A DNA stretch of 64,000 nt from NCBI GenBank assembly GCA_001508155.1, contig LGFI01000009.1, forward strand, positions 1 to 64,000, given 5' to 3'. Of this stretch, positions 21,667-33,773 are shown one piece after another; position 1 is the first letter of the stretch, and each line of letters opens with the position of its first letter. A program made the position numbers and the translations under genes. Source of the stretch: Acetothermia bacterium 64_32. GTDB taxonomy: Bacteria > Bipolaricaulota > Bipolaricaulia > Bipolaricaulales > Bipolaricaulaceae. Below the pieces are notes generated by a model. It worked only from the letters and a program-made list of their open reading frames with translations, ran no database searches and had not been told where the DNA came from.

Positions 21667-22905
21667 ATGAGGCGGGAGCGGCTGGTGGTGGGGCTGGATG
21701 TGGGGACCACTAAGGTGTGTTGTCTCGTCGCCAATGTGGTGGACGGGATAATCGAGATCATTGGCATGGGCATGTCCCCCTCCCGGGGGTTGGAAAAGGG
21801 CGTGGTGGTGGACATCGGCCGTACCATCCAATCCATAAGAAAGGCGGTGGAAGAGGCCGAGAACATGGCCGATGTCCGGGTGGACGACGTATATGTGGGG
21901 ATAGCTGGAAAGCACATCCGTTCCATAAACAACTCCGCCACGGTATCCATCACCCGGCCCGATCGCATAATCACCAAGGATGACGTCCGGCGGGTGGTGG
22001 AGGCCGCCCGGACCATCCCCCTTCCCCCGGACGTGGAGATGATCCACGTGATCCCGCGGCAATACATAGTGGATGGCCAAGAGGGGATCACCGATCCGGT
22101 GGGGATGACCGGGACACGTCTGGAGGTGGACGTCCACCTCGTCATGGGCTCGGTGACTGCGGTACACAACCTGGTGCGGTGTGTGGAGTCCCTGGGGATC
22201 CACATCGCCCAGATCGTGCTGGAGCCCTTGGCCTCGTCCCTGGCCGTGCTTTCCTCGGCGGAGAAGGAGCTGGGGGTGGTGCTCCTGGACGTGGGTGGGG
22301 GCACGACCGACATCTCCGTCTTCCGCGGGGGGGACATCTGGTTTTCCAAGGTCATCCCCATTGCCGGGGAGCACATCACCAACGACATCACCGTGGGCCT
22401 GCAGACCCCCATCGAGGAGGCGGAGAGGATCAAGAAGGAGTACGGCACCTGCCTTGTGGACTCGGTGGCGGACGAGGAGAAGATAGAGGTGGCCACCATC
22501 GGGGGGGACGGGACAAAGAGCGTTTCCCGCAAGAAGCTGGCCAAGATCATCGAGCCGCGGGTGGAGGAGATCCTGGACCTGGCCATGCAGGAGGTGGAGG
22601 ACGCCGGTTACCGGGATCTGATCCCGGCCGGGATGGTAATCACCGGGGGCACCTCGCTCCTGGAGGGGATAACGGAGTTCGCCCAACAGAGGTATGGGAT
22701 CCCGGTGCGGCGGGGGAGGATCCCCCAGGGGATCCACGGGCTGCGGGACATCGTGGAATCCCCCATCTATGCCACCGCCATCGGGCTTCTTAAGTATGCG
22801 GTGGAGGGGAGGGACTTCGCCCGGGCCCGGGTCGGCTCCCGGCCCCGGAGCGGGGGCATGCTCTCCCGGCTTTTGGGCTGGTTCAGGAAGTTCCTGCGGG
22901 GGTGA
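21667..22905 (+). CDS. ftsA: Cell-division protein FtsA
   Basis: FtsA is the actin-like protein that anchors FtsZ filaments to the membrane. The 412-residue protein has the phosphate-binding start V-G-L-D-V-G-T-T-K-V, the SHS2/1C domain (H-I-R-S-I-N-N near residue 80), L-L-D-V-G-G-G-T-T-D near 205 and G-M-V-I-T-G-G-T-S near 323. The C-terminus ends in an amphipathic basic stretch (L-S-R-L-L-G-W-F-R-K-F-L-R-G), the expected membrane-targeting helix. ftsZ follows after six bases. Confidence 0.95.
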   Translation: MRRERLVVGLDVGTTKVCCLVANVVDGIIEIIGMGMSPSRGLEKGVVVDIGRTIQSIRKAVEEAENMADVRVDDVYVGIAGKHIRSINNSATVSITRPDRIITKDDVRRVVEAARTIPLPPDVEMIHVIPRQYIVDGQEGITDPVGMTGTRLEVDVHLVMGSVTAVHNLVRCVESLGIHIAQIVLEPLASSLAVLSSAEKELGVVLLDVGGGTTDISVFRGGDIWFSKVIPIAGEHITNDITVGLQTPIEEAERIKKEYGTCLVDSVADEEKIEVATIGGDGTKSVSRKKLAKIIEPRVEEILDLAMQEVEDAGYRDLIPAGMVITGGTSLLEGITEFAQQRYGIPVRRGRIPQGIHGLRDIVESPIYATAIGLLKYAVEGRDFARARVGSRPRSGGMLSRLLGWFRKFLRG

Positions 22906-22911
22906 GGGGGT

Positions 22912-23976
22912 ATGAACGGCGAGAGCCCGGCTCGGCTGATGGTGGTGGGGGTGGGCGGCGGCGGGGGGAACGCCGTGGACCGGATGATGCGCGCTGGGCT
23001 CCAGGGGGTGGAACTGGTGGCGGTGAACACCGACGCCCAAGTCCTGGCCATCGTGAAGGCACATCAGCACCTGCAGATCGGGCGCAAGCTCACCGGGGGC
23101 CTGGGGGCCGGCGGGGACCCGGAGATCGGCAGGCTCGCCGCCGAGGAGTCGCGGGAGGAGATCGCCGACCTGCTTTCGGGGCTTGACATGGTGTTCGTCA
23201 CCGCCGGGATGGGCGGGGGGACGGGGACCGGGGCGGCCCCGGTGATCGCCGAGGTGGCAAAGGAACTGGGTATCCTAACGGTGGCCATCGTCACCCGGCC
23301 CTTCTCCTTCGAGGGCCTGGCCAGGGCCCAACGGGCGGAGGTGGGCATCCAAAACCTGGCCCAGAACGTGGATGCCATAGTCACCATCTCCAACGACAAG
23401 CTCCTCAAGGTGGCCCCCCCTGACATGCCCCTCACCCGGGCCTTCGAACTGGTGGACGAGGTGCTCCGCCAGGGGGTACAGGGGATAACCGACCTCATCA
23501 CCGTCCCAGGGCTCATAAACCTGGACTTCGCGGACGTGGAGTCGGTGCTGCGGGGGGCGGGCACCGCCATGATGGGGATCGGAGAGGCCGAGGGGGAGAA
23601 CAAAACCCGGGAGGCGGCCCGCCGGGCCATCTCCTCACCCCTCCTCGACGCCACGGTCAAGGGCGCCAAGAAGGCCATCCTCAACATCACGGGCGGGGAA
23701 GATCTCACCTTGGAGGAGGTCACCGAGGCGGCAAGCGTCATCCACGAGGCCCTCTCGGACAAGGCCGACCTCATCTTCGGGGCCACCATCCGCGAGGGGA
23801 TGCAAAGGGCACGGGTCACCGTGATCGCCACCGGCTTCCCACCCACCTCCGGGGGCGAGGTGGCCGAGTCGGAGGAAGAGGCGATCCTGGAGCGGATCGA
23901 GCGCGAGGGGATCTTGGGGGACGATTACGATATCCCTACATTCCTCCGCAAATCCCGCAGGACGGAGCTCCCCTAG
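22912..23976 (+). CDS. ftsZ: Cell-division GTPase FtsZ
   Basis: The 354-residue tubulin homologue forms the Z-ring. It has the nucleotide-binding G-V-G-G-G-G-G-N-A-V near residue 12, the tubulin signature G-G-G-T-G-T-G-A-A-P-V near 102, the catalytic T7 loop N-L-D-F-A-D-V near 203, and a short tail ending in D-I-P-T-F-L-R-K, the conserved peptide for FtsA binding. The C-terminal linker is very short. Its TAG stop overlaps the TAG stop of nadE on the opposite strand within a CTAG palindrome. A second FtsZ-like gene is at 30946. Confidence 0.97.
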   Translation: MNGESPARLMVVGVGGGGGNAVDRMMRAGLQGVELVAVNTDAQVLAIVKAHQHLQIGRKLTGGLGAGGDPEIGRLAAEESREEIADLLSGLDMVFVTAGMGGGTGTGAAPVIAEVAKELGILTVAIVTRPFSFEGLARAQRAEVGIQNLAQNVDAIVTISNDKLLKVAPPDMPLTRAFELVDEVLRQGVQGITDLITVPGLINLDFADVESVLRGAGTAMMGIGEAEGENKTREAARRAISSPLLDATVKGAKKAILNITGGEDLTLEEVTEAASVIHEALSDKADLIFGATIREGMQRARVTVIATGFPPTSGGEVAESEEEAILERIEREGILGDDYDIPTFLRKSRRTELP

Positions 23977-28387: not shown

Positions 28388-30253
28388 ATGGCAAGAGGTT
28401 TGCTTGTAGGGAGCATCGCCATCCTGGGGCTCGGAGTACTTATCCTGGGGGCCGAGCGGGGACCGATCGAGATCCTGTCGGACTCCGATTTCACCCCTGA
28501 AAACGGGGTCATCGCCGGGGCCGGCACCCCAGCCGATCCCTACATCATAGCGGGCTGGGACATCCATGTCCCCGAAGGGAGCCCCTATGGGGTGCGGATA
28601 GAGAACACGACCGCCCCGTTCGTGCTGCGGGGGGTGAAGGTGTTGGGGGCCCAGTCCCCGGAGGGGGCCGGGATCTACCTGGCCCGGGTGGAAAACGGGG
28701 CCATCGAGGACTGCTTGGTCCAAGAAAGCCATAACGGCATCCTCCTCCTTTCCTCCCAGGGGATAGCCATCCGCGACACCTACCTCTTCGTCTCCGGGCT
28801 CGGCCTTCAGGTCCAGGGGACGGCCCCGGAGCATTACCGGCACCTGATAGAGCAAACTAACCTGGTGAACGGAAAACCCATCCACTACTACTGGGGCCTG
28901 GAGGGGCAGGTGCTCACGGGGATCGAGGCCGGGAGCTTCTTCCTGGCCGGCTCAAGGGAGGTGACGGTACAGGGGCTCCGGGTGGAAGAGGGGGATGGGG
29001 CAACAGTGGCCTTCTGCGAGGGGATCACCGCGGAGGGGGCGGACCTCTTCCAGAACCGCGGCCACGGCCTGTACGTCCTCTCCTCCCCCCAAACCCAGCT
29101 CTTGAACTGCAGGCGGGTGGCCAACAACGCCCTCTCCGGGGCCCTTTTGTGGCTCTCCCCCCGGAGCCGGGTGGAGGGTTCGGGGTTTTATGGAAACCAG
29201 GTGGGGCTTTACATAAACGCGTCCGACCGGGTGGTGGTGGAGGGGGCTGCCTTCGGAGGCAACGCCCTGGGGCTCCTGGTGGCCGGTGCCGCCCGGGAGG
29301 TGGAGATCAGGGACTCGCTGTTTTATCAGAACAAGACGGCGGTCCAGCTGGAGTCGGCCGTCGGGGCCCTGGTGGAGCGCTGCGCGGTTCAGGATGCCGA
29401 CATCGGGGTGCAGGTGGACGCCCAGTCGACCTACAGCCGGGTGCAGGACTCCACCTTCATCCAGTGCGGCTACGGCCTTGACATCCTGGGCTCGCAGGGG
29501 ACCTTCGAGCGCAACCTGATCGCCTACTCGAACATCGGGATCATCTTCGAGGAGGCCTATGGGGAGGCCCATCCCACCGGCAACTCCCTGAGGCACAACC
29601 TGATCTACCGCTCCCGGGACGGGCTCTATCTGGGCCATGAGACGAAGGACACCTGGCTCCAGGAGAACCTAATCTGGGGCTGCGACCGAGCGGCCCGGGA
29701 CTTCGGGGAGAACAACTGGGCCCCGGCGGGGAGGGGCAACTGGTACTCCGGCTACCGCGGCCCCGATGCCGATGGCGATGGGATCGGGGATGAGCCGGTC
29801 CGGTTCGGCGGCGGGGGGGTGGACCCGGCCCCACTCACCTCCCGGGAATTCTATGCCCGGATCCCCGGGCTCCTGGGCACCCTCAAAAAGCGGGAGATAA
29901 CTCTAGAGGACGGCGAGGGACATCGGGCGGATCTCCAGGTGCTGGTGGCTGACACCCCCCCGGCGAGGCTCCTGGGGTTCCAAGGGGTTCCCAGGGAGAT
30001 CGCCCAGGGGCTTGTCATCCTGTTCGTCTGGGAGGAGGCGGGGAACTACGGGCTTTGGAACCGGGGGGTGACGGTGGACCTGGAGGTAACGTTCTTCTCC
30101 GAGGACGGTGCCTTCGCCGGGGACCTCTCCATGCCCGCCGGCTCCACCGACCGGTACGCCGCAAGGGGGCCGTTCCTCTACGCGCTGGAGACCCCGGCCG
30201 GCATGCTCTCGCAACTCGGGCTCACCCCGCCCATCTTCTTGACCCTCCCCTGA
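28388..30253 (+). CDS. Secreted NosD-like right-handed beta-helix protein with C-terminal DUF192 domain
   Basis: The 621-residue protein starts with a signal peptide or N-terminal anchor (residues 5-21). Residues about 60-440 are parallel beta-helix (PbH1/NosD) repeats with recurrent G-I-x-L and N-x-I-x-x-N turns, ending in G-N-W-Y-S-G-Y-R-G-P-D-A-D-G-D-G-I-G-D, the usual NosD C-terminal motif. Residues about 510-615 match the DUF192 pattern: L-L-G-F-Q-G-V-P, L-V-I-L-F-V-W-E-E-A-G-N-Y-G-L-W-N-R, L-E-V-T-F-F-S-E-D-G, and Y-A-L-E-T-P-A-G. DUF192 usually occurs alone, so the fusion is odd. A carbohydrate-binding or surface role is likely. Good RBS (GGGGGGAAAC) before the ATG. Confidence 0.78.
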   Translation: MARGLLVGSIAILGLGVLILGAERGPIEILSDSDFTPENGVIAGAGTPADPYIIAGWDIHVPEGSPYGVRIENTTAPFVLRGVKVLGAQSPEGAGIYLARVENGAIEDCLVQESHNGILLLSSQGIAIRDTYLFVSGLGLQVQGTAPEHYRHLIEQTNLVNGKPIHYYWGLEGQVLTGIEAGSFFLAGSREVTVQGLRVEEGDGATVAFCEGITAEGADLFQNRGHGLYVLSSPQTQLLNCRRVANNALSGALLWLSPRSRVEGSGFYGNQVGLYINASDRVVVEGAAFGGNALGLLVAGAAREVEIRDSLFYQNKTAVQLESAVGALVERCAVQDADIGVQVDAQSTYSRVQDSTFIQCGYGLDILGSQGTFERNLIAYSNIGIIFEEAYGEAHPTGNSLRHNLIYRSRDGLYLGHETKDTWLQENLIWGCDRAARDFGENNWAPAGRGNWYSGYRGPDADGDGIGDEPVRFGGGGVDPAPLTSREFYARIPGLLGTLKKREITLEDGEGHRADLQVLVADTPPARLLGFQGVPREIAQGLVILFVWEEAGNYGLWNRGVTVDLEVTFFSEDGAFAGDLSMPAGSTDRYAARGPFLYALETPAGMLSQLGLTPPIFLTLP

Positions 30254-30909
30254 TGGCCAAGGGCATCCGGGCCGTGTTCTTCGACCTGGACGGGACCCTT
30301 GTCCGCTACCAAGGGGTGGACTTCGAGTCCAGCTGGGGGGCACTGGGGGTGGCGGCCGGGCTGAAGGAGGAGTGGGACGCACTCCTTGCCAAGTACCTCG
30401 GGAGGCCGGAAGGCTATCCCGACTGGGTAAGCGAAAACGCCTCCCTGCTGCGCGGGGTCCCCCTGTCCCGGGTGGCCCCCAAGCTCCTTCCACCCCCTTA
30501 CCCCCCAGGGGTCAGGGAGGCCATCCGAGCCCTTAAGGAAAAGGGGTTGATCCTCGGCATCGTCTCCTCCGGGGTGGGCTTGGTTGCCCAGTGGGTGAAG
30601 GAGGATCTTGGGCTGGACTTTTTCGTCGCCAATGAGCTTCTTGTGGAGGAGGGGCGCTTTACCGGCCAGGCGGTGATCAAGGTGGACCTGTGGAACAAGC
30701 TGGAGGTGACCGCCGGCCAGGCCGCCCGCTACGGCCTTGACCTCGGCCAGCTGGCCTTTGTGGGGGATCACATAAACGACGTGCCGGTGCTCGAGGCGGT
30801 GGGCTTGGGGATAGCCTACGCCCCTAAACACAGGGCGGTAAGGGAAAAAGCCAGGTTCGTGACCGAGGATTTCCGGGAGATCCCTGGGCTCATCGAGCGG
30901 GCGATTTGA
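30253..30909 (+). CDS. HAD-family phosphatase (phosphoserine-phosphatase-like)
   Basis: The 218-residue HAD hydrolase has motif I D-L-D-G-T-L near residue 11, motif II V-S-S-G near 100, a Lys after the hydrophobic stretch and motif IV G-D-H-I-N-D near 178. The helical cap and the pattern of K-G-L-I-L-G-I-V-S-S-G point to the SerB/phosphoserine phosphatase-like subgroup, although small-molecule substrate specificity cannot be read from sequence. Its ATG overlaps the stop of the beta-helix gene (TGATG). The FtsZ-like gene follows after 36 bases. Confidence 0.78.
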   Translation: MAKGIRAVFFDLDGTLVRYQGVDFESSWGALGVAAGLKEEWDALLAKYLGRPEGYPDWVSENASLLRGVPLSRVAPKLLPPPYPPGVREAIRALKEKGLILGIVSSGVGLVAQWVKEDLGLDFFVANELLVEEGRFTGQAVIKVDLWNKLEVTAGQAARYGLDLGQLAFVGDHINDVPVLEAVGLGIAYAPKHRAVREKARFVTEDFREIPGLIERAI

Positions 30910-30945: not shown

Positions 30946-32283
30946 ATGAACTCCGAGAAAATGGGCGAGGGCCTGGCGCTGAAGTGGCGGCAACTCCTGG
31001 CCGGCATCCAAGATGGGATGCTGCGGGCCTGCCTTCCCACCTCGGCGGAGAAGGTGCACTTGGAGCGGGGGGTGCTGGTGGTGGAGGTGGACTCCACCTT
31101 CAAGAAGCGTTATGCGCAGAGGAAGCTGATCAAGCTCCAGGAGCTTGCCCGCAAGCTCTTCGGGGTGGACGAGGTTCGCATCACCGAGCTCCCCTTGATC
31201 GAGGAGATGGAGCGGGAGGAGGCCCCGGCGCCGGCGGCCAACATCCTGGTGATCGGGGTGGGGGACGGGGGGATCAACGCCCTGGAGAGGATGCGGGAGG
31301 CAGGGCTCGCCGGGGTGAGGCTGGTGGCCTGCGACACCGACAGCCAGGTTCTGTCCATCTCCCGGGCCCATGAAAGGCTCCAGCTGGGGCCGGAGGTGAC
31401 CAAAGGGCGGGGGACCGGGGGGGATGTGGAGAAGGGCCGCCGGGCGGCGGAGGCAGCGGCCTGGGACATCGAGAAGCTGATCAGCGGGGCCCACCTGGTT
31501 TTCCTCACCTGCGGCCTGGGTGGGGGCACCGGCACCGGGGCCGCCCCGGTGATCGCCCGCCTCGCCCGCCAGGCAGGGGCCCTCACCGTGGGGGTGGCCA
31601 CCCTGCCATTCGAGTTCGAAGGCCCGGTGCGGATGCAAAGGGCGGAGCTGGGGCTGGCAAAGCTCAGGGAAGAGGTGGACGTAATCATCGTCATCCAAAA
31701 CCAGAGGCTTATCGAAAAAGCCCGTAGCATCCCAATAGCCAGGGCGTTTGAGCTGGCGGACGAGGTGCTACGCACCGGGGTCCAGGGGATCAGCGACCTC
31801 ATCACCGTCCCCGGGATCGTGAACCTGGACTTCGCCGACGTGGCGGCGGTGCTCCGGGGGGCAGGGACCGCAATGATGGGGATCGGGGAGGGGCAGGGGG
31901 AGGGCCGGGCCGTCCAAGCGGCCAAGATGGCCGCCTCCAACCCCCTGTTCGAAGGCGAATCCCTAAGAGGTGCCCGCAAGGTGCTGCTCAACATCACGGG
32001 GGGGGATGACCTCACCCTGGCGGAGGTGACCCATATCGCCGAGGTGATAAGAAAACAAATCTCGGCGAACGCCGACCTCACCTTCGGCGCCGTGGTCAGG
32101 GAGGAGCTGACCGGCAGGGTCAAGGTGACGGTGATCGCGGCGGACTTCAAGGCCGTTGCCTTCGAGGAGGAGGGGGAAATCCCCCAAGGGCCCAGTCTCC
32201 CCAAGGCCCCGCGCCGGCGGACCAAGCTCGATGAAGATCAAGTGGACGTGCCCGCCTTCTTGCGTAAAAGAAGAGAGGAGTGA
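30946..32283 (+). CDS. Second FtsZ paralogue with an N-terminal DnaA-domain-I/DnaX-like domain
   Basis: The 445-residue protein contains a full FtsZ GTPase (about residues 98-415): glycine-rich loop I-G-V-G-D-G-G-I-N-A-L, G-G-G-T-G-T-G-A-A-P-V, and the T7 catalytic loop N-L-D-F-A-D-V, so GTP binding and hydrolysis seem possible, although one Gly of the first loop is Asp. The tail ends D-V-P-A-F-L-R-K-R, like an FtsA-binding peptide. Residues about 10-82 form an extra domain with the pattern W-R-Q-L-L...V-x-L-E-R-G-V-L-V-V-E-V...F-K-K-R...L-F-G-V-D-E-V-R-I, resembling DnaA domain I or the DnaX tau domain. A linker rich in E, A and P joins them. It is clearly diverged from the ftsZ at 22912. 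Role unknown. Confidence 0.85.
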   Translation: MNSEKMGEGLALKWRQLLAGIQDGMLRACLPTSAEKVHLERGVLVVEVDSTFKKRYAQRKLIKLQELARKLFGVDEVRITELPLIEEMEREEAPAPAANILVIGVGDGGINALERMREAGLAGVRLVACDTDSQVLSISRAHERLQLGPEVTKGRGTGGDVEKGRRAAEAAAWDIEKLISGAHLVFLTCGLGGGTGTGAAPVIARLARQAGALTVGVATLPFEFEGPVRMQRAELGLAKLREEVDVIIVIQNQRLIEKARSIPIARAFELADEVLRTGVQGISDLITVPGIVNLDFADVAAVLRGAGTAMMGIGEGQGEGRAVQAAKMAASNPLFEGESLRGARKVLLNITGGDDLTLAEVTHIAEVIRKQISANADLTFGAVVREELTGRVKVTVIAADFKAVAFEEEGEIPQGPSLPKAPRRRTKLDEDQVDVPAFLRKRREE

Positions 32284-32298
32284 ACCCGTGAGACCTCC

Positions 32299-32475
32299 TT
32301 GGTGGCCCTGGGGGGCTGCCTTTGGGCCCAGGAACCGGAGCTGGTCCAGCCCGAGGGGCTGGCGGCAAGCGGCGCTCTCTTCTTGTGGGACAGTCTATCC
32401 CTCGATCCCAAAGGGTCCATCACCCCTTTCCGGGGGGAGCTGGAGCTAGGGGACGGATGCGGCTGTGGTGGCTGA
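32299..32475 (+). pseudogene. Possible short secreted peptide gene with a frameshifted start
   Basis: One frame reads L-V-A-L-G-G-C-L-W-A-Q-E-P-E, like the end of a signal peptide and cleavage site, then about 45 residues ending G-D-G-C-G-C-G-G before a TGA at 32473-32475. The only well-placed start with an RBS (GTG at 32288, after GAGGAG) is in a different frame and gives a tryptophan-rich, non-protein-like sequence. A one-base shift at CCTCCTTGG would restore a sensible signal peptide. Either a frameshifted small gene or coincidence; it overlaps the start of the M1 peptidase. Confidence 0.25.
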
Positions 32476-33773
32476 TCATCTTTGCCCTGGGAGCCAGGGG
32501 GGCTGAGCTTCACTACGACCTTCTCCTAAAGGTGGAAGCCAACGGGTGGATTCAGGGCAGCGAGAGGGTGTCAGGGGTAGCGGAGGGGAATTGGCAAGAG
32601 GCGGTGTTCCGCCTTTACCCAGCAGCTTTGGGACAGGAGCTTCTCTTCCCGCTCCCGGGCCCGGGTTGGGATCAGGTGCATCCCACGGCGTTCGTGGTCC
32701 CCCTGGGGTGCGAAACAGGGCAGACCTTCTCGGTCTACATCGCCTTCCAGGGGCAGCTCCCTCCGCTTGAAAGGCAAGAGGGCTACGGGCTTTTTGCCAG
32801 GAGCGAGGCGGCGATGGTCCTCGCCCAGTGTTACCCCATGCTCGCCCCTTGGCAGGGGGGGTGGTTGGTGGAACCCATCTTCCCCTGGGGGGATGGGGTC
32901 GTAGCCGAGGTGGCAGACTACAGGGCGGAGGTATGGCTGCCGCCGGGCTGGAAGCTGGTGGCAAGCGGAGAGGAGTCTCCCATGGAGGCAGGGGGGTATC
33001 TGGTAGCCGGGGAAAATCTCCGGGAGCTGGGCATGGTGGCCTTGGATGGATATATAGAGTCCACGGAAACCGTGGCCGGGGTGCGGGTGCGGAGCTTCTG
33101 CCTCCCCGAGCATGCGGAGGCGGGGGAGGCCGCCCTCAAGATCACCTGTGAGGCCCTGGCACTTTACGTCGAGCTTTTCGGCCCCTACCCTTGGGAGGAG
33201 CTTGATGTAGTCCAGGTACCCCTTTCCGGGGCAGCGGGGGTGGAGTTCCCCGGTCTTGTGCTGGCCGGGCAGGATTACTACGCTCGCTACCCCGAGGATC
33301 CCCTCTTCTTCCCCATGATCTTCGCCCATGAAGTGGCCCATCAGTGGTGGTATGCCCAGGTGGGCAGCGACCAGGTGGCCGAGCCCTGGCTGGACGAGGC
33401 CCTGGCCACCTACACCTCCGGCCTTTTCTTCGAATCTCAGGGGAGATTGACGGAGATGCTCTCATATTGGGAGAGTTCATACCTGCAAGGCCGGGGGCGA
33501 AACCCCCAGGCCAGGGTTTCCAGTCCCCTGTGGGACTTCCCGGACGGGGCGGGGTATGGGGGGATAGTGTACTCGGGCGGGGCGCTTTTCCTGCACGAGC
33601 TGCGGGGCCGGATGGGGGACGAGGCCTTCTTCCGGGCGCTGCGGCGGTACCTGGCTGAATACCGGTGGAAGATCGCCCGGGATGAGGACTTCCTGCGTGT
33701 CCTGCGGGCGGAAAGCCCGCTCCCCCTTGAAAATCTGATCCTAAGCTGGCTTGGCCCAACCGACCCCCACTGA
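32457..33773 (+). CDS. Secreted M1-family (gluzincin) metallopeptidase
   Basis: The 438-residue protein has a signal peptide (about residues 1-16) and the M1 zinc site H-E-V-A-H-Q-W-W with the third ligand Glu 18 residues later in L-D-E-A-L-A-T-Y. The exopeptidase motif upstream appears as a degenerate G-V-E-F-P-G (canonical G-A-M-E-N), so aminopeptidase activity is less certain. The C-terminal helical domain is shortened compared with classical 850-residue aminopeptidases. It probably acts in the periplasm or outside the cell. It lies after the FtsZ paralogue. Confidence 0.82.
   Translation: MRLWWLIIFALGARGAELHYDLLLKVEANGWIQGSERVSGVAEGNWQEAVFRLYPAALGQELLFPLPGPGWDQVHPTAFVVPLGCETGQTFSVYIAFQGQLPPLERQEGYGLFARSEAAMVLAQCYPMLAPWQGGWLVEPIFPWGDGVVAEVADYRAEVWLPPGWKLVASGEESPMEAGGYLVAGENLRELGMVALDGYIESTETVAGVRVRSFCLPEHAEAGEAALKITCEALALYVELFGPYPWEELDVVQVPLSGAAGVEFPGLVLAGQDYYARYPEDPLFFPMIFAHEVAHQWWYAQVGSDQVAEPWLDEALATYTSGLFFESQGRLTEMLSYWESSYLQGRGRNPQARVSSPLWDFPDGAGYGGIVYSGGALFLHELRGRMGDEAFFRALRRYLAEYRWKIARDEDFLRVLRAESPLPLENLILSWLGPTDPH

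Follow-up and report, generated by a model that had tools for sequence, protein, structure and literature searches.

How is bacterial cell division timed against chromosome replication, and could a division protein itself carry part of the answer? The timing has long been an open problem, and the known links between the two processes mostly act via adaptors (SlmA, Noc, SulA, Min). The question is raised here by a 64,000-nucleotide stretch of contig LGFI01000009.1 from Acetothermia bacterium 64_32 of the phylum Bipolaricaulota (the window), in which a second ftsZ gene, ftsZ2, encodes an FtsZ with a front domain of replication type, a hint of a physical tie between chromosome copying and cell division.

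A second ftsZ gene with an extended N-terminus

The ftsZ2 open reading frame comprises 445 codons with an ATG start and zero internal stops (Table 1), and its start codon is backed by homologues, as 37/37 aligned relatives start at about the same position. The ordinary gene of the division cluster, ftsZ1, lies directly after ftsA and 7.0 kb upstream of ftsZ2, and apart from this pair the 1.8-Mb assembly has no Tubulin-family gene. FtsZ2 scored 355.3 bits against the NCBIfam FtsZ equivalog TIGR00065, above the cut-off of 295.2, and 156 and 99.9 bits against PF00091 and PF12327, respectively (cut-offs 33 and 27). Furthermore, a model of full-length FtsZ2 matched FtsZ crystal structures in the PDB; for nearly all best matches the TM score on the target was 0.87-0.97 and the identity 40-52%.

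Table 1. Features of ftsZ2 and of surrounding genes, in positions of the window.
Feature	Coordinates	Strand	Basis
ftsZ2, 445-aa fusion: DnaA-I/DnaX-C-like domain, linker and FtsZ	30946..32283	+	ORF, Pfam, NCBIfam, homologues
N-terminal domain of the DnaA-I/DnaX-C/DciA superfamily, residues 1-82, predicted order a-a-b-b-a-a-b	30946..31191	+	Profiles, Pfam, AlphaFold2, Foldseek
Conserved residues S50-Y56 (STFKKRY), start of helix 3	31093..31113	+	Alignment with E. coli DnaA; PMC5448010
Linker, residues 83-98, variable, low-confidence; longer in some relatives	31192..31239	+	Alignment, AlphaFold2
Tubulin/FtsZ GTPase domain (PF00091), residues 99-257	31240..31716	+	Pfam
T4 (tubulin signature) loop GGGTGTG, residues 192-198	31519..31539	+	Alignment
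T7 catalytic loop NLDFAD, residues 293-298	31822..31839	+	Alignment; invariant across fusion homologues
FtsZ C-terminal domain (PF12327), residues 307-402	31864..32151	+	Pfam
C-terminal peptide DVPAFLRK, residues 434-441, FtsA-binding type	32245..32268	+	Alignment; FtsZ1 counterpart DIPTFLRK
ftsZ1, ordinary ftsZ of the division cluster	22912..23976	+	Tubulin match, NCBIfam, tree
ftsA, likely membrane tether for both FtsZs	21667..22905	+	Product named from sequence
HAD-family phosphatase gene, directly upstream of ftsZ2, f1-conserved neighbour	30253..30909	+	
M1-aminopeptidase-like gene, downstream of ftsZ2, f1-conserved neighbour	32457..33773	+	

The T7 motif was invariant in 32 FtsZ2 homologues, and the T4 motif GGGTGTG was present in most of them, a few members showing small changes. 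In genus g5 (L025, L026, L028, L029, L031) the alignment has GKGTGxG at T4 instead of GGGTGTG, and GTP binding or hydrolysis by FtsZ2 may be altered in that lineage. FtsZ1 and FtsZ2 share a tail peptide that follows the pattern D-[IVLY]-P-[AT]-F-L-R, and the fixed differences that set FtsZ2 apart from FtsZ1 include N39 to D130, L64 to R155 and S242 to N332. In front of its GTPase domain FtsZ2 has about 98 extra residues, made up of the 82-residue domain (hereafter the N-domain) and the linker, in which we found W14, a strand pair of the form VxLERGVLVVEV, FKKR and a terminal LFGVDEV. These results uphold an earlier note, made from the letters of this DNA, which had described a diverged second FtsZ 7 kb from the ordinary ftsZ (here confirmed by Pfam, TIGR00065 and the coordinates), intact tubulin motifs, and some 95 additional N-terminal residues with the pattern just given; the putative FtsA-binding peptide that it had seen in the tail also stands as a sequence feature, being of FtsZ1-like type. 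FtsZ2 is very likely to form GTP-dependent polymers, and it probably joins the FtsA-tethered ring.

The fusion is shared by three families of Bipolaricaulota

We searched 100 genomes across the phylum with a profile of the N-domain. It was detected in 36/40 genomes of family f1, 30/33 of f2 and 2/2 of f7 (68/75 altogether), and none of the 25 genomes from other families had the fusion; the single match of the profile outside FtsZ2 in the 100 genomes was the C-terminus of a DnaX in family f6 (E = 0.008). At the fusion loci the N-domain and FtsZ always lay in one frame of ~430-510 aa, one of which ends at a contig end, and the f1 and f2 genomes lacking a match were mostly incomplete or had an FtsZ fragment stopping at a contig edge. 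Two FtsZs, one of them with an extra N-terminus, were found in nearly every f1 and f2 genome among 60 relatives. A scan of 84,980 species with patterns taken from FtsZ2, which reaches close relatives only, returned full-fusion matches from Bipolaricaulota loci only. Because the fusion recurs in 68 of the 75 genomes of three families, chance, a frame error and mis-assembly are ruled out as its source, and we regard the fusion, first proposed from the one genome, as virtually certain to be real. Searches of open-licence papers found none on FtsZ in Bipolaricaulota and none on an FtsZ with such an N-domain fusion. The sole FtsZ of family f5 (L179, L184) has a charged N-terminal extension of its own, of ~50 residues and unlike the N-domain of FtsZ2.

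Ten residues of the N-domain were invariant in 37 homologues (M1, W14, D23, L26, C29, L30, P31, Y56, K60 and P83). The dN/dS ratio was 0.06-0.39 for the N-domain and 0.03-0.15 for the GTPase, indicating purifying selection that is somewhat relaxed in the N-domain.

In an FtsZ tree built without the N-domain, the fused FtsZs formed one clade (support 100/100, stem 0.78), and the ordinary FtsZs encoded by these genomes fell outside it; the second FtsZ of the earlier note is thus a member of a separate paralogue clade. Within this clade the split of f2 and f7 from f1 mirrors that in the tree of ordinary FtsZs, and vertical descent of ftsZ2 therefore fits. Neither a duplication in the ancestor of f1, f2 and f7 (p-AU 0.15) nor one before the radiation of the class (p-AU 0.34) was rejected. 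A changed role is indicated by the long stem and by paralogue-specific changes (N39 to D130, L64 to R155); it might be that of a shape or polar-growth factor whose N-domain docks to a polar protein, for instance in bipolar prosthecae such as those published for one Bipolaricaulota member (PMC6092417). However, prosthecae are reported from one lineage only and the tail peptide of FtsZ2 is still of the Z-ring type, and we consider such a role highly improbable.

The order of genes around ftsZ2 is conserved in f1, where a NosD-like gene and the HAD gene precede it and the M1 peptidase gene follows. In several f1 genomes ftsZ2 is separated from the M1 peptidase gene by a gene for a PKD-domain-like protein (L189:10560-11340, L191:6385-7230, L200:3100-3925); this protein has a GGCGCG-type tail and is probably secreted, and its gene is absent from the window. 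As the f1 neighbourhood is not retained in f2 or f7, the genomic context names no function for ftsZ2. With regard to other division genes, no SepF was detected in this genome and no MinC_C (PF03775) in any of the 60 class genomes searched, whether or not these have ftsZ2. The absence of MinC is ruled out as the reason for ftsZ2, since families without ftsZ2 likewise lack it.

Identity of the N-terminal domain

The N-domains of 37 homologues were compared by hmmscan with 24,736 Pfam families. Ranked by the number of members matched, the leading families were DnaX_C (14/37), DciA (10/37) and DnaA_N (8/37), with STICHEL DnaA_N-like (5/37) and PolC-NII (3/37) in ranks four and five. All five are replication domains or their kin, and they belong to one KH-like fold group. 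The individual matches were all weak, the best being 1.5e-4. FtsZ2 itself scored 17.9 bits against DnaX_C (PF20964), below the gathering cut-off of 26.2, and gave no match to DnaA_N (PF11638), for which the weak matches in homologues reached E 0.008 at best; those to DciA (PF05258) reached E 0.0046, and the fusion loci lay under its cut-off.

Next to these scans, profiles built from the same genomes were aligned with hhalign, as single pairwise comparisons and not as a database search, with 100 column shuffles as controls. The N-domain matched the DnaX C-domain with a probability of 94 (score 44.5; best shuffle 20.4), DnaA domain I with a probability of 64 (score 31.4; best shuffle 18.4) and DciA with a probability of 18 (score 22.6; best shuffle 20.1), while the accepted relatives that served as a yardstick gave 71 (DnaX-DnaA) and 85 (DciA-DnaA). 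DciA, a candidate for closest relative through a shared strand-helix pattern and the weak PF05258 matches, is ruled out in that position by its hhalign probability.

The AlphaFold2 model of residues 1-98 had a pLDDT of 79.5 (about 87-91 over residues 11-80) and the order of helices and strands listed in Table 1. When the N-domain model was compared with 350,542 PDB chains by Foldseek, ranks 1 and 3 were DnaA domain I in complex with SirA (4tps; probability 1.00, TM 0.61/0.70), ranks 2 and 5 were DciA in complex with DnaB (8a3v, 7ykm) and rank 4 was DnaA-N of M. genitalium; these five had E-values of 0.006-0.025, and no match fell below 0.001. E. coli tau came 31st, and other KH-like folds came after the top matches. 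Sequence searches of the PDB with the N-domain or its profile gave nothing meaningful. The nearest relative accordingly varied with the method, being DnaX by profile-profile comparison, DnaA, slightly, by profile-sequence comparison and DnaA domain I by fold search.

Together, hhalign, the Pfam scan and Foldseek bear out the DnaA-I/DnaX-like N-terminus that had been proposed. We are highly confident that the N-domain belongs to the DnaA-I/DnaX-C/DciA superfamily; since it lies below the curated cut-offs of PF20964, PF11638 and PF05258, it represents a new branch there rather than a true DnaA-I or DnaX-C domain. DnaX, DnaA and DciA of this genome each retain their domains, and the possibility that a donor protein lost its domain to FtsZ2 is ruled out by DnaX and DnaA. 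Within the phylum, DnaA domain I (PF11638) was detected in most f1, f2, f5 and f7 genomes and was undetected in G038, G040, G043, G046, G049, G052, G055 and G058, which belong to f3, f4, f6 and f8, families that are also without ftsZ2.

A candidate partner-binding surface

The FtsZ2 segment VDSTFKKRY aligned through VPSVFAKGG of the genome's own DnaA with APNRFVLDW of E. coli DnaA, which places S50, F52 and Y56 of FtsZ2 at N44, F46 and W50 of the E. coli protein. These three residues were conserved in 34/37, 36/37 and 37/37 homologues, respectively. In E. coli DnaA, N44, F46 and W50 bind DiaA and F46 is linked to DnaB, and the B. subtilis equivalents N47 and F49 bind SirA (PMC5448010). The correspondence suggests that the N-domain may use a surface equivalent to the partner-binding one of DnaA, and we give an even chance to its binding a replication protein. 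The fold alone does not name the partner: proteins of the same fold also self-dimerise and bind nucleic acid.

DnaA domain I dimerises through a W6-type contact, and W14 of FtsZ2, present in 37/37 homologues, occupies the helix 1 position of the conserved tryptophan of DnaA. The N-domain might then be a self-association module only, which pairs, bundles or cross-links FtsZ2 filaments in a manner unrelated to replication; a dimerising domain gives a filament former avidity, and ftsZ2 has no replication genes as neighbours. However, helix 3 (S50, F52, K53, Y56, R59, K60) is as fixed as helix 1, and W14 is also common to DnaX C-domains, where it is maybe a core residue, and we consider self-association as the sole function unlikely.

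The N-domain also has a conserved basic set (K53, K54, R59, K60, K63), which, with the KH-like fold, would suit a nucleic-acid binder that tethers FtsZ2 to DNA, as a nucleoid-occlusion-like or chromosome-sensing FtsZ, and has no protein partner in the replisome. Single-stranded DNA is bound weakly by DnaA-I (PMC5448010) and, as reported in PMC12547741, by the DUF721 domain of DciA. The basic residues equally suit an acidic protein partner, though, and we judge a nucleic-acid binder of this kind rather improbable.

A possible ring-borne receptor for a replication protein

The reading that we prefer, with a probability of roughly 0.45 for the explanation as a whole, is that the product of ftsZ2 is a diverged but working FtsZ paralogue, which most likely enters the Z-ring and has as its partner a replication protein, to which the ring responds. 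Co-assembly with FtsZ1, the geometry, the partner and the regulatory outcome are parts that we infer, as is the link between replication and division through FtsZ2. The GTPase part would polymerise with or alongside FtsZ1 and would be held at the membrane through the C-terminal peptide on FtsA. The curvature and chirality of FtsZ filaments are reversed between an N-terminal and a C-terminal membrane anchor, which implies attachment at opposite faces (PMC5979038). With its tail on FtsA, FtsZ2 would thus expose the N-domain on the opposite face of the filament, pointing to the cytoplasm and nucleoid, and on these grounds we propose a ring-borne receptor. The helix-3 surface (S50, F52, Y56, R59, K60) would bind the replication protein, candidate partners being DnaB, the DnaB loader DciA, the polymerase or a regulator of DnaA. 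In this phylum, without detected MinC, Z-ring assembly or position would thereby become responsive to the replication machinery.

Regulation of the ring by FtsZ2 in response to replication is, taken by itself, doubtful. Equally tentative is the form in which FtsZ2 by itself couples replication to division: its DnaA-I/tau-like domain would bind an active component of the replisome or initiator, and this would gate the assembly or position of the Z-ring that its own FtsZ domain builds; this would be a checkpoint inside a ring protein, fixed in the ancestor of three Bipolaricaulota families. The f1 neighbours of ftsZ2 (HAD, NosD-like, M1 peptidase) are non-replication genes, which counts against a link to replication.

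Comparison with known systems

An FtsZ with a replication-type interaction domain in its own chain, kept clade-wide, would allow the tie between the two processes to be tested directly on a single protein. If the proposal is true, the DnaA-I/tau/DciA module has spread beyond the proteins of the replisome.

Members of the FtsZl-1 family resemble FtsZ2 in belonging to the FtsZ superfamily and having extra domains, among them a kinase at the N-terminus in some Planctomycetes, but these extra domains are different ones, there is a C-terminal coiled coil, and the proteins are not orthodox FtsZ (PMC2875224); a replication-type domain in FtsZl-1 proteins was not found in the text of that paper. With bacterial FtsZ (TIGR00065), FtsZ2 shares the GTPase and C-terminal domains, the T4 and T7 loops, the FtsA-type peptide and a score above the equivalog cut-off, and it differs in its 82-residue N-domain, its long-stemmed separate clade and fixed changes such as DTD for NTD.

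For the N-domain, DciA/DUF721 (PF05258) offers the same fold in the PDB (8a3v, 7ykm) and weak Pfam matches in 10/37 homologues; the profile-profile match, however, is weak (probability 18), and a separate DciA is encoded in the genome. DnaA domain I (PF11638) is the best structural match (4tps), and the xSxF of helix 3 corresponds to PNRF of E. coli, whereas the N-domain lies under the Pfam cut-off and the DnaA of the same genome has a domain I of its own. The C-domain of DnaX (tau; PF20964) is the best profile-profile match and has the tryptophan and strand pattern in common with the N-domain, but in DnaX this domain stands C-terminal to an AAA+ ATPase, whereas in FtsZ2 it stands N-terminal to a GTPase.
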